Source: Devosia sp. ZB163
Lineage (GTDB): Bacteria; Pseudomonadota; Alphaproteobacteria; Rhizobiales; Devosiaceae
Reading direction: 5' to 3'
Assembly: GCF_028613635.1 (NCBI RefSeq)
Contig: NZ_JAQRMY010000002.1
Coordinates: forward strand, 930,001-994,000
Length of the DNA: 64,000 bases
The position numbers and the translations under genes were made by a program. The notes beneath the pieces are model-generated. The model saw nothing but the letters and a program-made list of their open reading frames with translations. It searched no databases and was not told where the DNA came from. Positions 7,874 through 37,599 of the stretch are shown piece after piece. How positions within the stretch are numbered: the first letter of the stretch is position 1; the number at the start of each line of letters is the position of its first letter.

Positions 7874-8698
7874 TCAGTTCCGCCCGCGCATGTACGGGTT
7901 GACCTCGGCCGTGGTCATGATGTCGTTGAGGTAGGTCAGTGTGCCGGGGCCGAGCACCTCTGCGGCCGCGTTGCGCAACCCAGTGAGGGCGGCGCGGGCA
8001 AAAGAACCGCCGGCACTGACGCGCTGCACGCCGGCTGCCGCCAGATCGGGGATCGTGTAGGGCGAGCGCTTCTGCCACAGCACGACATTGAGCGGCTTGC
8101 TGACCGCGGCGACCACCTTTCGGATGGCCTCGAGATTGGGCAGCCCTGGTGCGAACAGCACGTCCGCCCCGGCGGCCTCGAAAGCCTGGAGCCTGCGGAT
8201 CGTGTCATCCAGATCCGGCCGGCCGTGGAGGTAGTTCTCGGCCCGCGCCACGAAGGTGAAGGGGAAGGGCAGGGCGTGCGCCGCCTGGGCCGCGGCTGCC
8301 ACCCGTTCGACGGCAAGTTCGAGTTCGTAGATCGGTTGATCCGGGTTGCCCGTCGCGTCCTCGATCGAACCACCGACCAGTCCCGCCTCGCCGGCGAGCC
8401 GGATGGTCTCGGCGGCGTGGTCGGGGGCATCCCCATAGCCGTTCTCCAGGTCGCCGCTGACCGGCACATCGACCGCGGCCGCGATCGCCGCCGCGTTCTG
8501 CAGCGCCTCATCGCGCGTTACCGCCCCGTCCTTGCGCCCCATGGTCCAGGCGAACCCGGCACTCGTGGTCGCCAGCGCCTTGAAGCCCATTCCCCCCAGA
8601 ATTCGGGCACTTCCGACGTCCCAGGGATTGGGCATGACGAAGAGCGGTCCACGGTGCAGTTCGCGGAAGCGCTCGCCCTTCTGCTGCTGGTTCATCAT
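7874..8698 (-). CDS. Isocitrate lyase/PEP mutase family protein
   Basis: 274 residues beginning MMNQQQKGERF at 8698, with AGAGGAGA 5-11 bases upstream; the longer frame to 8794 would run through the SOS promoter region. It has the (beta/alpha)8 features of the ICL/PEP-mutase superfamily: FVMPNPWDVGSARIL, metal-site DLENGYGD, the conserved IEDATG and VARAENYL. The catalytic cysteine loop of true isocitrate and methylisocitrate lyases (KKCGH) is absent. That places it among the unspecified members, such as carboxyphosphonoenolpyruvate-mutase-like or oxaloacetate-hydrolase-like proteins. The substrate is unknown. It diverges from the micropeptide gene across 116 bases. Confidence 0.82.
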   Translation of the reverse strand: MMNQQQKGERFRELHRGPLFVMPNPWDVGSARILGGMGFKALATTSAGFAWTMGRKDGAVTRDEALQNAAAIAAAVDVPVSGDLENGYGDAPDHAAETIRLAGEAGLVGGSIEDATGNPDQPIYELELAVERVAAAAQAAHALPFPFTFVARAENYLHGRPDLDDTIRRLQAFEAAGADVLFAPGLPNLEAIRKVVAAVSKPLNVVLWQKRSPYTIPDLAAAGVQRVSAGGSFARAALTGLRNAAAEVLGPGTLTYLNDIMTTAEVNPYMRGRN

Positions 8699-8760
8699 GT
8701 GTTCTCCTCTGGGTCCGGATTCTGAAATTAACCAACGATTCACTGCCAGGCGACCTGTAG

Positions 8761-8792
8761 TAGACAGGAACGAAATAGGAACATATAAGAAC
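8761..8792 (+). promoter_or_regulatory. SOS-type promoter with LexA box in the spacer
   Basis: TAGACA (8761-8766) and TATAAG (8784-8789), separated by 17 bases, form a good sigma-70-type promoter. The spacer contains GAACGAAATAGGAAC (8768-8782), a perfect GAAC-N7-GAAC alphaproteobacterial LexA box. A third GAAC follows at 8789-8792 after 6 bases. The lexA promoter in this window has the same geometry (GAAC-N7-GAAC between -35 and -10). Transcription would start near 8796, giving a leader of about 19 bases before the micropeptide ATG. LexA binding would block RNA polymerase directly. Confidence 0.8.
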
Positions 8793-8814
8793 ATAACCGA
8801 AACCGGAGGTTCTG

Positions 8815-8913
8815 ATGCTCATTTTCGTCAAAGATCTGCTCGCCTTTGTCACCATCTGCGGCTTCTTCGTGGCGTCGCTCACCTGGATGGATATCGCCTC
8901 CCGACTCGTGTGA
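8815..8913 (+). CDS. SOS-controlled 32-residue membrane micropeptide (SidA/TisB-like candidate)
   Basis: A 32-codon ORF, ATG at 8815, with a strong GGAGG Shine-Dalgarno at 8804-8808 six bases upstream. The peptide starts MLIFVKDLLAF, has a hydrophobic segment of about 20 residues (positions 8-24, FVTICGFFVASLTW) and ends with IASRLV. It is therefore a single-pass inner-membrane peptide with a lysine near the N-terminus and an arginine near the C-terminus. Its promoter carries a perfect LexA box between -35 and -10. Known SOS micropeptides of this size and topology are Caulobacter SidA (29 residues, blocks division by acting on the divisome) and E. coli TisB (29 residues, membrane toxin). I claim similarity of size, topology and control, not of sequence. 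dnaE begins 63 bases downstream. Confidence 0.72.
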   Translation: MLIFVKDLLAFVTICGFFVASLTWMDIASRLV

Positions 8914-8976
8914 CGAGTTTGTGGATAGAGCACCTGCCGGGTGGCCGCGGCGCCGTCGCGGCGTTAGGAACGACTT

Positions 8977-11900
8977 ATGGCTGGTCCAGGCTTCATCCAC
9001 CTTCACGTTCACTCCGCATATTCCCTGCTCGAGGGAGCGCTGCCGCTCGGTAAGCTGCTCGATCTTGCCAAGGCGGACAAGCAGCCCGCCCTGGGTATCG
9101 CAGATACGAACAACCTGTTCGGCGCTCTCGAGTTCTCCGAGAAGGCGGCAGGCAAGGGAATCCAGCCGCTTGTCGGCGTAGAACTGGCCGTCGACTTCTC
9201 CGCCGTTGAGGACAGCCAGGACCGCATGCAGGAGCGTGGCCACGACCGTGGCCGCCTCGGCAAGAGCGCCGTAGTCCTCCTTGCCGCCACCTCCGAAGGG
9301 TTCTCCAACCTATCCACCCTCGTAAGCCGCGCCCACATCGAAGGCGAGAACGGCCGCGCCGCGGCCAAGCTGGCCTGGATGGAGCGTGAGCGCCTCGAAG
9401 GGATCATCTGCCTCACCGGCGGCCCGGAAGGGGCGATCGACCCGCTCTTCGGTAACAACATGGATACGCTTGCGCTGGCCAGGTTGGACCGGCTGCGCGA
9501 CATGTTTGGCGACCGGTTCTATGTCGAGCTGCAGCGCCACGGCCGCCCGCAGGAGGCTGCCAACGAAGCCCGGCTGATCGACTACGCCTACGAGCACGGG
9601 GTGCCGCTGGTCGCAACCAACGAGCCCTTCTATCCCGCGCCGGCCGACTACGAGGCGCATGATGCGCTTCTCGCCATCGCCGGTGGCACCGTGCTGGCCC
9701 AGACCGAGCGGCGCAAACTCAGCGACCAGCACTACTTCAAGACCCGCGAGGAGATGCAGGCGCTCTTCGCCGATCTGCCCGAAGCGATCGAGAACACGGT
9801 CGAGATCGCGCAACGCATCAGTTACCGGCCCAGGAAGCGCAACCCGGTGCTGCCTACCTTCGCGGCCACGCCCGACCAGACGCCGGAAGACGCCGTCGCA
9901 GCCGAAGCCCAGGCTCTCGCGCACATGGCGCGCACCGGGCTCGACGAGCGACTGAAGACCGTCGGCATCGCGGCCGGCAAGACCGAAGAGATCTATCGCG
10001 AGCGCCTCGAGTACGAGCTCGGCATCATCGAGCGCATGAAGTACCCCGGCTACTTCCTCATCGTGGCCGACTTCATCCAGTGGGCCAAGGCGCACGACAT
10101 TCCGGTCGGGCCGGGCCGCGGTTCGGGCGCCGGCTCGCTGGTCGCCTACGCGACCACCATCACCGACCTCGATCCGCTCCGCTACAACCTGCTGTTCGAG
10201 CGCTTCCTCAACCCCGAACGTGTTTCGATGCCGGACTTCGACATCGACTTCTGCCAGGACCGGCGCGAGGAAGTGATCCGCTACGTCCAGCAGAAGTATG
10301 GCGAGGCCCAGGTCGCCCAGATCATCACCTTCGGTACGCTCCAGGCGCGCGCCGTGCTGCGCGACGTCGGCCGCGTGCTGCAGATGCCCTATGGCCAGGT
10401 CGACCGCCTCGCCAAGCTCGTGCCGGCCAACCCGGCCGACCCCTGGACCCTCGAGCGCTCGCTCAAGGAAGTGCCGCAGCTCCAGCAGATGGCCGACGAG
10501 GACGAGCAGGTTCGCGAGCTTCTCGCCATCGGCCAGAAGCTCGAGGGGCTCTATCGCCACGCCTCGACCCACGCCGCCGGTATCGTCATCGGCGACCGGC
10601 CACTACAGGAACTCGCGCCGCTCTACCGAGACCCGCGCTCGGACATGCCGGTCAGCCAGTACAACATGAAGTGGTCGGAAACGGCCGGGCTGGTGAAGTT
10701 CGACTTCCTTGGCCTCAAGACGCTGACCACCATCAAGCGCGCCGTCGACATGATCAATCGCGGTGGCGACGGCACATTCCGCATCGAAGACATCCCGATC
10801 GACGACGAGAAGACCTACAAGCTCTACTCGATCGGCGACACCGCCGGGGTGTTTCAGGTGGAAGGCGCCGGCATGCGCCGGGCCCTGGTCGACATGAAGC
10901 CCGACCGCTTCGAAGACATCATCGCGCTCGTCGCGCTCTATCGCCCGGGCCCGATGGAGAACATCCCGCTGTTCAACGCCCGCAAGCGCGGCGACGAGGA
11001 CATCGAATATCCGCATGACGCACTGAGCGAAGTGCTCGACGAGACTTACGGCATCATCGTCTACCAGGAACAGGTGATGCAGATCGCGCAGATCCTCAGC
11101 GGGTACTCGCTGGGTGAAGCCGACATGCTGCGCCGCGCCATGGGCAAGAAGATCAAGGCCGAGATGGACGCGCAGCGAGCGCGCTTCCAGGAAGGCGCGA
11201 TCAAGTACGGCCTGAAGAAGGGCCTCGCCGACACCATCTTCGACCTGCTCGCCAAGTTCGCAAACTACGGCTTCAACAAGTCGCACGCCGCGACCTACGC
11301 TCTGGTCAGCTACCAGACGGCCTATCTCAAGGCGCATTACCCGCACGAGTTCTTCGCGGCGACCATGACGCTCGACATGGGCAACACCGACAAGCTCAAC
11401 GAATTCCGCCAGGACGCCAAGAAGCACGGCATCGAGATCGTGCCGCCCTGCGTCAACCGCTCGGACGCGGTGTTCAACACTCACGACGGCAAGGTGTTCT
11501 ACGCCATCGGCGCGGTGAAGGGCGTCGGGCAGGCGGTGGCCGAGCACATCATGGAAGCGCGCGGCAACCAGCCCTTCTCCGACCTGGGCGACTTTGCCTC
11601 GCGCGTCGATGCGAGGATCATCAACCGGCGGACGCTGGAAGCGCTGATCAACGCCGGCGCTTTCGACCAGCTCGTGCCGCGTCGAGAGCAAGCCTTCGCG
11701 GCCATCGATGCGATCGTCGCCACGGCGCAGCGCACCAATGCGAATGCCGCCGACGGCATCATGGACATGTTCGCGGCCGATCGGCCCGAGCCGATCCTGC
11801 TCAATCAAAGCGTAACGAACTGGCTTCCGGCAGAGCGGCTGTCCAGAGAGCACAGCGCCATCGGTTTCCACCTCAGCGGCCACCCGCTCGACCAGTATGC

Positions 11901-12450
11901 CGAGCTGTTCGACCGCCTGCGCGTGACGCCCTATGCCGATTTCGAGCGGGCGGTGAAGGAAGCCGACGCGCGGGCAGGGCGCCTCGCCGGCACCATCGCA
12001 ACCCGTAACGACCGGCGCACCAAAAAGGGCACGCCGATGGCGATCATCTCGCTGTCCGATGCCAGCGGCGGCTATGAGGTGATCGCCTTCTCCGAGCAGG
12101 TCAGCCAGTTTTCCGAGGTCCTTCAGCCCGGCAAGTCGGTCGTCCTCACCATCGAGGCCGATGAACGCCCGGATGGCATCAGCATCAGGCTCATCAAAGC
12201 TGAACCGATCGAGGGACTGGCCGAAAAGATCGGGCGCCGCCTCACCGTTTTCGCCGGGTCGGAGAAATGCCTCGCTCCGATCCACTCGCAGCTCAAGCCC
12301 GGCGGCGAGGGGCAGGTGAGCTTCATCGTCATCCGCGACGCCGGGGCGAAGGAATACGAGATCGAACTCAAGGGCGGCTACCGGCTGAGTGCCGAACTCG
12401 CCGGCAGCATCAAGGCGATGGAAGGCGTGGTGGACGTACGGCTGAACTAG
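8977..12450 (+). CDS. dnaE: DNA polymerase III subunit alpha
   Basis: 1157 residues, the replicative C-family polymerase. The PHP domain begins at residue 7 (HLHVHSAYSLLEGA). The catalytic palm motif PDFDIDF lies at about residues 419-425 with metal-binding aspartates at about 420 and 422; the third catalytic aspartate is probably in VKFDFLGLKTL (about residue 573). A helix-hairpin-helix region and an OB-fold (GRLAGTIATRNDR, about residue 1004) follow. N-terminal sequence and length fit replicative DnaE1 and not the shorter SOS-induced error-prone DnaE2. It lies downstream of the SOS micropeptide, so read-through induction after DNA damage is possible. Confidence 0.97.
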   Translation: MAGPGFIHLHVHSAYSLLEGALPLGKLLDLAKADKQPALGIADTNNLFGALEFSEKAAGKGIQPLVGVELAVDFSAVEDSQDRMQERGHDRGRLGKSAVVLLAATSEGFSNLSTLVSRAHIEGENGRAAAKLAWMERERLEGIICLTGGPEGAIDPLFGNNMDTLALARLDRLRDMFGDRFYVELQRHGRPQEAANEARLIDYAYEHGVPLVATNEPFYPAPADYEAHDALLAIAGGTVLAQTERRKLSDQHYFKTREEMQALFADLPEAIENTVEIAQRISYRPRKRNPVLPTFAATPDQTPEDAVAAEAQALAHMARTGLDERLKTVGIAAGKTEEIYRERLEYELGIIERMKYPGYFLIVADFIQWAKAHDIPVGPGRGSGAGSLVAYATTITDLDPLRYNLLFERFLNPERVSMPDFDIDFCQDRREEVIRYVQQKYGEAQVAQIITFGTLQARAVLRDVGRVLQMPYGQVDRLAKLVPANPADPWTLERSLKEVPQLQQMADEDEQVRELLAIGQKLEGLYRHASTHAAGIVIGDRPLQELAPLYRDPRSDMPVSQYNMKWSETAGLVKFDFLGLKTLTTIKRAVDMINRGGDGTFRIEDIPIDDEKTYKLYSIGDTAGVFQVEGAGMRRALVDMKPDRFEDIIALVALYRPGPMENIPLFNARKRGDEDIEYPHDALSEVLDETYGIIVYQEQVMQIAQILSGYSLGEADMLRRAMGKKIKAEMDAQRARFQEGAIKYGLKKGLADTIFDLLAKFANYGFNKSHAATYALVSYQTAYLKAHYPHEFFAATMTLDMGNTDKLNEFRQDAKKHGIEIVPPCVNRSDAVFNTHDGKVFYAIGAVKGVGQAVAEHIMEARGNQPFSDLGDFASRVDARIINRRTLEALINAGAFDQLVPRREQAFAAIDAIVATAQRTNANAADGIMDMFAADRPEPILLNQSVTNWLPAERLSREHSAIGFHLSGHPLDQYAELFDRLRVTPYADFERAVKEADARAGRLAGTIATRNDRRTKKGTPMAIISLSDASGGYEVIAFSEQVSQFSEVLQPGKSVVLTIEADERPDGISIRLIKAEPIEGLAEKIGRRLTVFAGSEKCLAPIHSQLKPGGEGQVSFIVIRDAGAKEYEIELKGGYRLSAELAGSIKAMEGVVDVRLN

Positions 12451-37552: not shown

Positions 37553-37599
37553 GAACAAAGACTGAACGTTCTTGTATCCGTTCCAGTTATGTTCTGCAA
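37553..37599 (-). promoter_or_regulatory. lexA promoter with two LexA boxes
   Basis: On the minus strand TTGCAG (37594-37599) and TACAAG (37571-37576) are 17 bases apart. A perfect LexA box, GAAC-N7-GAAC on the minus strand (37580-37594; GTTCCAGTTATGTTC on the plus strand), fills the spacer. A second perfect box, GAACAAAGACTGAAC on the plus strand (37553-37567), lies just downstream of the -10 near the transcription start. Together they give autoregulation of lexA. Confidence 0.85.

Follow-up and report, generated by a model that had tools for sequence, protein, structure and literature searches.

A 64,000-nucleotide stretch of the Devosia sp. ZB163 genome (contig NZ_JAQRMY010000002.1, positions 930,001 to 994,000 of the forward strand; hereafter the window) carries, upstream of dnaE, a micropeptide gene with an SOS-type operator that is real and conserved. 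Its 32-amino acid product has a good probability of being a divergent homologue of Caulobacter SidA that would block division after DNA damage, probably by way of FtsW, FtsI and FtsN. On the comparative data, homology to SidA together with a SidA-like mode of action is the most likely case for the micropeptide. An original prediction, made from the window sequence, had proposed SOS control, a membrane micropeptide and a likeness to SidA; the conservation of the boxes, the synteny and the profile homology described below strengthen each of these. The gene is not special to Devosia, and seems to be the form taken here by a widespread gene that in the Caulobacteraceae is sidA.

The micropeptide gene and its tandem operator

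The open reading frame (ORF) lies on the plus strand at 8815–8913, from ATG to TGA, and is preceded by a Shine-Dalgarno sequence, GGAGG, at 8805–8809, which bears out the predicted 32-codon ORF with a ribosome-binding site. Its identification as a SidA-like micropeptide draws on family conservation, selection and homology to peptides that match the SidA model. Residues 8–23, encoded at 8836–8883, form the most hydrophobic 16-residue stretch (mean Kyte-Doolittle 2.26) and are a putative transmembrane (TM) helix. The length of 32 residues and the single hydrophobic stretch fit a single-pass inner-membrane peptide of about 30 amino acids, for which insertion is predicted.

A -35-like hexamer, TAGACA (8761–8766, plus strand), and a -10-like hexamer, TATAAG (8784–8789, plus strand), are separated by a 17-nucleotide spacer (8767–8783). 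Within the spacer is LexA box 1, GAACGAAATAGGAAC (8768–8782, plus strand), the perfect GAACN7GAAC box that had been predicted. Box 1 is found in all 41 promoters of the window's family, the window included, with 29 exact and 12 having one mismatch. It is flanked by a GACA-type -35 in the same register and a TA-type -10 across these 41 promoters, in an alignment on box 1 whose placement rule made partial use of -35 and -10 similarity and no use of box 2. A generic sigma-70 scan, which accepts only -10 hexamers ending in T, found no promoter in 8600–9100. The promoter call therefore rests on conservation in the 41 loci.

A LexA-like box 2, GAACATAACCGAAAC (8789–8803, plus strand), has one mismatch and lies exactly 21 bp past box 1. 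The original picture of the operator is correct for box 1, but this second box had been missed and the operator is not a single site. A box with no more than one mismatch is present at exactly +21 in 35 of the 41 family loci (4 exact, 31 with one mismatch), as against a mean of 0.07 of 41 loci at the other offsets from -60 to +60. The last half-site of box 2 is usually AAAC or CAAC, and box 2 is therefore probably the weaker of the two. The spacing of two helical turns suggests that LexA dimers would sit side by side on the same face of the DNA, where binding may be cooperative. A single box is reported for about 97% of the SOS promoters of Caulobacter (PMC12700426). Two exact forward boxes are also found before the SidA-type peptide in Brevundimonas-type loci (L175–L180, L182, L183, L185 and L186), where they are 18 bp apart, a tandem arrangement unlike the 21-bp one in the window's family.

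Conservation and selection in the family

The 32-residue peptide has a tblastn match (E ≤ 1) in 56 of the 61 family genomes, its own included, although the weakest of these matches may be due to chance. Every one of the 40 matched loci that were read encodes a peptide of similar length; since these loci were chosen among genomes with a prior tblastn match, this is not an independent rate. The check for conservation of the ORF and the LexA box upstream of dnaE, which had been suggested with the original prediction, found both kept across the family.

Eleven close sequences were compared, 10 from the window's genus and one from a different genus of the same family. Their pN/pS is 0.40 in the reading frame of the peptide, compared with 1.01 and 1.89 in the two shifted frames. 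Variable columns at codon positions 1, 2 and 3 number 18, 13 and 28 over 31 codons. By these comparisons the amino acid sequence of the micropeptide is under purifying selection. The family peptide set (A1) consists of 33 peptides from the 41 family loci, near-identical ones having been left out, and has the consensus MLxFVKDxxAFVxLxxFxxxxLxWMD. A10 and F17 are invariant in the 33 rows, and M1, K6, D7 and D26 are nearly so.

Relationship to SidA of Caulobacter

A search with the N-terminus of Brevundimonas DnaE gave 80 named loci, the 37 nearest of which belong to Brevundimonas, Phenylobacterium, Caulobacter and unplaced relatives. An exact forward box followed by a peptide of about 29 amino acids is present before dnaE in 35 of these 37 Caulobacteraceae-type loci, the exceptions being L181, which is without an exact box, and L209, which is cut off by the end of its contig. 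The other 43 named loci, mostly Rhodospirillales and Acetobacteraceae by title, include three with a box, one of which has a TM ORF after it (Sneathiella, L231). All 13 distinct Caulobacteraceae-type peptides match the NCBIfam SidA model, NF033228, at E ≤ 1, the best at 8e-19. Against the model's cut-off of 35 bits, one Caulobacteraceae-type peptide scores 57.3 and the peptide of L258 scores 72.4. In the control genomes 1 of 14 exceeds the cut-off and seven have a match, Caulobacter vibrioides among them.

Caulobacter sidA is given as CCNA_02004 (PMC10769358), the nucleoside hydrolase as CCNA_02005 (PMC3667746) and dnaE as CC1926 (PMC1839093). These published gene numbers agree with the slot of the SidA peptide before dnaE. 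In L258 and L267, from a Caulobacter-like genus, the order is hydrolase, 29-amino acid peptide and a putative dnaE-type gene. The nucleoside hydrolase was identified among the top frames of these two out of 10 further loci and confirmed by Pfam; in the three loci inspected before these, no such gene was apparent by eye.

Alignment of the family profile with the Caulobacteraceae profile gives an hhalign score of 26.3, and the two are co-linear from Met1 to residue 18. None of 100 column shuffles reaches this score, the highest being 16.5, and the reversed profile scores 8.8. The other peptides of the order align with both groups, as does a mixed set from the class. The peptides in sets A2 (13), A3 (26) and A4 (10) were selected by eye. 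One A1 row, L036, has an added first Met that is absent from the DNA, and three A3 or A4 rows have a GTG start written as Met. Leaving out the L036 row (and, for A4, the L089 row) changes the score from 26.3 to 25.8 for A1–A2, from 50.8 to 50.1 for A1–A3 and from 31.4 to 30.1 for A2–A4. In the open literature searched, no paper was recognised as describing a homologue of SidA from the order to which the window belongs.

Distribution in the order and class

A dnaE match was obtained in 70 of the 71 genomes of the order sample. Besides the window's own genome, 69 were read. In 34 of them the 500 bp upstream of dnaE contain an exact forward box, and in 32 of the 69 the box is also followed by a TM ORF of 24–48 amino acids; at least one of these ORFs (L295) looks spurious, and a few loci have two candidates. 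A box in the reverse sense is found in 3 of 69. The micropeptide is present without an exact box in some loci, L285 among them, and lies further upstream in L073.

In the class sample, 95 genomes other than the window's own have a dnaE match, of which 89 were read and 6 left out; G101 is counted here and again in the order survey. Of the 89 loci, 14 have a forward box and 7 a reverse box, with 4 for the reversed-pattern control on both strands. A TM ORF follows the box in 13 of the 14 forward-box loci, and in the fourteenth (L142) a 29-amino acid peptide was found by hand. Of the 14, 11 fall among the 13 non-own genomes with a CtrA identity of at least 80%. The distribution therefore looks clade-wise rather than scattered.

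On balance we lean towards the view that SidA is not an invention of Caulobacter, and that much of the Alphaproteobacteria has it as an old division checkpoint of the SOS response. The gene would have been kept mostly near dnaE and left unlabelled because the peptide, at about 24–45 amino acids, is short and fast-diverging, with the window's family adding a helically phased tandem LexA operator.

Position beside dnaE

The gene for the DNA polymerase III alpha subunit, dnaE (8977–12450, plus strand; TIGR00594, 1185 bits), is the syntenic neighbour of the micropeptide gene in the window, and is directly downstream in 37 of the 40 matched family loci read. In G037 and G009 it lies about 0.5 kb further downstream. 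A small multi-pass membrane-protein ORF is located between micropeptide and dnaE in G037 (L368), which is from a reduced-genome genus, and L040 of G009 has a similar downstream start. In G014 (L360 and L367) dnaE is 327 kb away, while the box, with one mismatch, and the peptide are still together. There the micropeptide adjoins an ABC-ATPase ORF like the LolD-type one of the window, with a folD-like ORF downstream, both recognised by eye. The dnaE of G014 has no LexA box with one mismatch or fewer within 500 bp. The operator therefore goes with the micropeptide and not with dnaE, and the location upstream of dnaE, named in the original prediction, is a matter of synteny only. A terminator scan found no terminator-like site in the window at 8600–9100, so read-through from the micropeptide promoter into dnaE is possible in other loci.

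A TGTGNAW motif occurs within 60 nt after the micropeptide stop in 28 of the 41 family loci (in the window this gap is 8914–8976), compared with a mean of 0.95 and a highest value of 5 of 41 in mononucleotide shuffles. The motif may be part of dnaE's own promoter, and resembles part of a DnaA box.

lexA and other LexA boxes

There are seven exact GAACN7GAAC sites in the window, compared with 1.53 expected, and none of 100 shuffles reaches seven. Genome-wide there are 141, versus 50 for the reversed pattern. The window also contains lexA on the minus strand, with its Met at about 37532 and a LexA box, GAACATAACTGGAAC (37580–37594, minus strand), in the promoter spacer. As an internal control for the operator, lexA holds in kind, but the promoter geometry, which had been given as the same, is similar rather than identical, with the lexA box displaced from the corresponding register between the hexamers by about 2 bp. 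A second box, in the opposite sense, is present in the lexA promoter at 37553–37567.

A further box, GAACACATGATGAAC (8690–8704, minus strand), overlaps the start of a divergent gene that by eye is an isocitrate-lyase-like ORF. This box is at the same position in 5 of 11 close loci (the window and L011–L014); L016 has what seems to be the same divergent gene without the box. Two further dnaE-type genes above the TIGR00594 cut-off are present in the genome (G000), at C2:271601–274120 and C1:296367–298886. Exact boxes in the opposite sense are found near these, at C2:271064–271078 and C1:301872–301886, as expected for SOS-controlled dnaE2 copies.

Proposed mechanism and alternatives

In the proposed mechanism, LexA bound to the two boxes 21 bp apart would cover the spacer and the expected transcription start, keeping the promoter off. 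RecA bound to single-stranded DNA would, after damage, promote LexA self-cleavage and the promoter would open. The 32-amino acid peptide would then be translated and accumulate in the inner membrane, where its helix may contact the septal synthase complex FtsW/FtsI/FtsN, as SidA does. The candidate contact residues in the helix are the conserved K/R-D/E, A and F, and often a W outside the Caulobacteraceae. With FtsW/FtsI/FtsN held inactive, division would be delayed until repair. SidA is described as a 29-amino acid protein of the inner membrane; it is reported to interact with FtsW, to contact FtsN in a two-hybrid test, and to be suppressed by ftsW and ftsI mutations (PMC4211646). In favour of this reading, the genome has an FtsW-type protein and SulA was found in none of 21 relatives.

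Several results weigh against a SidA-like divisome inhibitor. The window micropeptide is not a member of NF033228, which gives no match to it and matches only 1 of the 33 family peptides (E 0.036) and none of the 26 and 10 peptides of two other sets. Across the order the model exceeds its 35-bit cut-off in 0 of 121 genomes, and the 53 genomes that have a match at E ≤ 1, wherever placed, reach a best E of 0.01. The co-linear match with the Caulobacteraceae covers 18 columns and the C-terminal half differs from SidA. More family peptides weakly match the small membrane protein YmiC (7 of 33, best E 0.0009) than match SidA, which we read as a generic likeness among short TM peptides. In about half of the order sample the 500 bp scanned contain no exact box. 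The match of the FtsW-type protein, at 302 bits, is below the curated cut-off.

These results can be read in other ways. An SOS-induced membrane toxin of the TisB or DinQ kind would depolarise or perturb the membrane and slow the cell, with no particular divisome protein as its target; the size of the peptide, its one hydrophobic stretch, the tight double operator and the precedent of DinQ in E. coli (PMC3567139) are in keeping with this, yet the homology and synteny with peptides that match the SidA model make it unlikely. The same gene might instead have another SOS membrane function, in the envelope or at a different divisome or growth-pole target, with the role at FtsW/FtsI/FtsN being specific to Caulobacter. 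The C-terminal half unlike SidA, the failure of the curated model to find the group and the weak YmiC matches would suit such a function, which is nonetheless distinctly improbable given that the peptide shares with SidA its type of operator, its size, its place and the conserved N-terminal half of its helix.

Two explanations that deny the peptide a function of its own fare worse. If the box put dnaE under SOS control and the ORF were a regulatory leader, the directly adjacent dnaE of 37 out of 40 loci and the possible read-through would be accounted for, but the amino acid sequence is under purifying selection, and in G014 box and peptide are 327 kb from a dnaE that has no box of its own. 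As box and peptide are not always attached to dnaE, the leader was rejected as very improbable. A chance ORF behind a chance box has in its favour that exact boxes do arise by chance, as the 50 reversed-pattern matches in the genome illustrate; conservation across the family, the pN/pS values and the phasing of the boxes at +21 contradict it, and it was rejected as scarcely credible. A SidA-like inhibitor of division remains the preferred reading.

Significance

The question of how cells of the window's order pause division after DNA damage has no labelled answer in the searches made (SulA in 0 of 21 genomes, the SidA model above its cut-off in 0 of 121), and the micropeptide is a concrete, conserved candidate for this pause. 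If the proposal is true, a SidA-like damage checkpoint is spread over many alphaproteobacterial families. The case illustrates how a gene of this kind can go unannotated, and provides a simple synteny rule for finding others: a LexA box and a TM micropeptide before dnaE. Natural variation among these micropeptides could be used to map how a single helix stops septation.

Comparison with known systems

Searches of Pfam, NCBIfam, PHROGs and PADLOC with the window peptide returned no match at E ≤ 1. The SulA domain (PF03846) is accordingly not among its Pfam matches, and none of the 21 related genomes searched has a member of the SulA family; identity with SulA was rejected. SulA and YneA nevertheless share the SOS-induced block of division proposed here, and YneA, like SidA, is reported to act on FtsW (PMC13396833).

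Family searches of the window peptide turned up no homology to TisB or DinQ, and no homology test aimed at these was made. TisB of E. coli is an SOS-regulated short peptide with a single TM segment. The predicted likeness to it found no support beyond size and the single hydrophobic stretch. DinQ of E. coli is described as an SOS-regulated toxic single-TM peptide (PMC3567139). Both are membrane toxins with antisense RNAs, and what the window peptide shares with them is an SOS-type operator, short length and a single putative TM segment.

DidA of Caulobacter is reported as a small single-TM division inhibitor acting on FtsW/FtsI/FtsN; it has 71 amino acids, is SOS-independent and induced by DriD, and binds FtsN (PMC4211646). 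Unlike DidA, the window peptide has 32 amino acids and LexA boxes. It differs from SidA in being 32 rather than 29 amino acids long, in its C-terminal half (WMD...) and in the tandem boxes 21 bp apart. Like SidA, it is a predicted single-pass micropeptide of about 30 amino acids, with a LexA-type box in its promoter, a slot just before dnaE and a co-linear R/K-E/D-x-L-A-F-x-S/T-x-x-x-F core.
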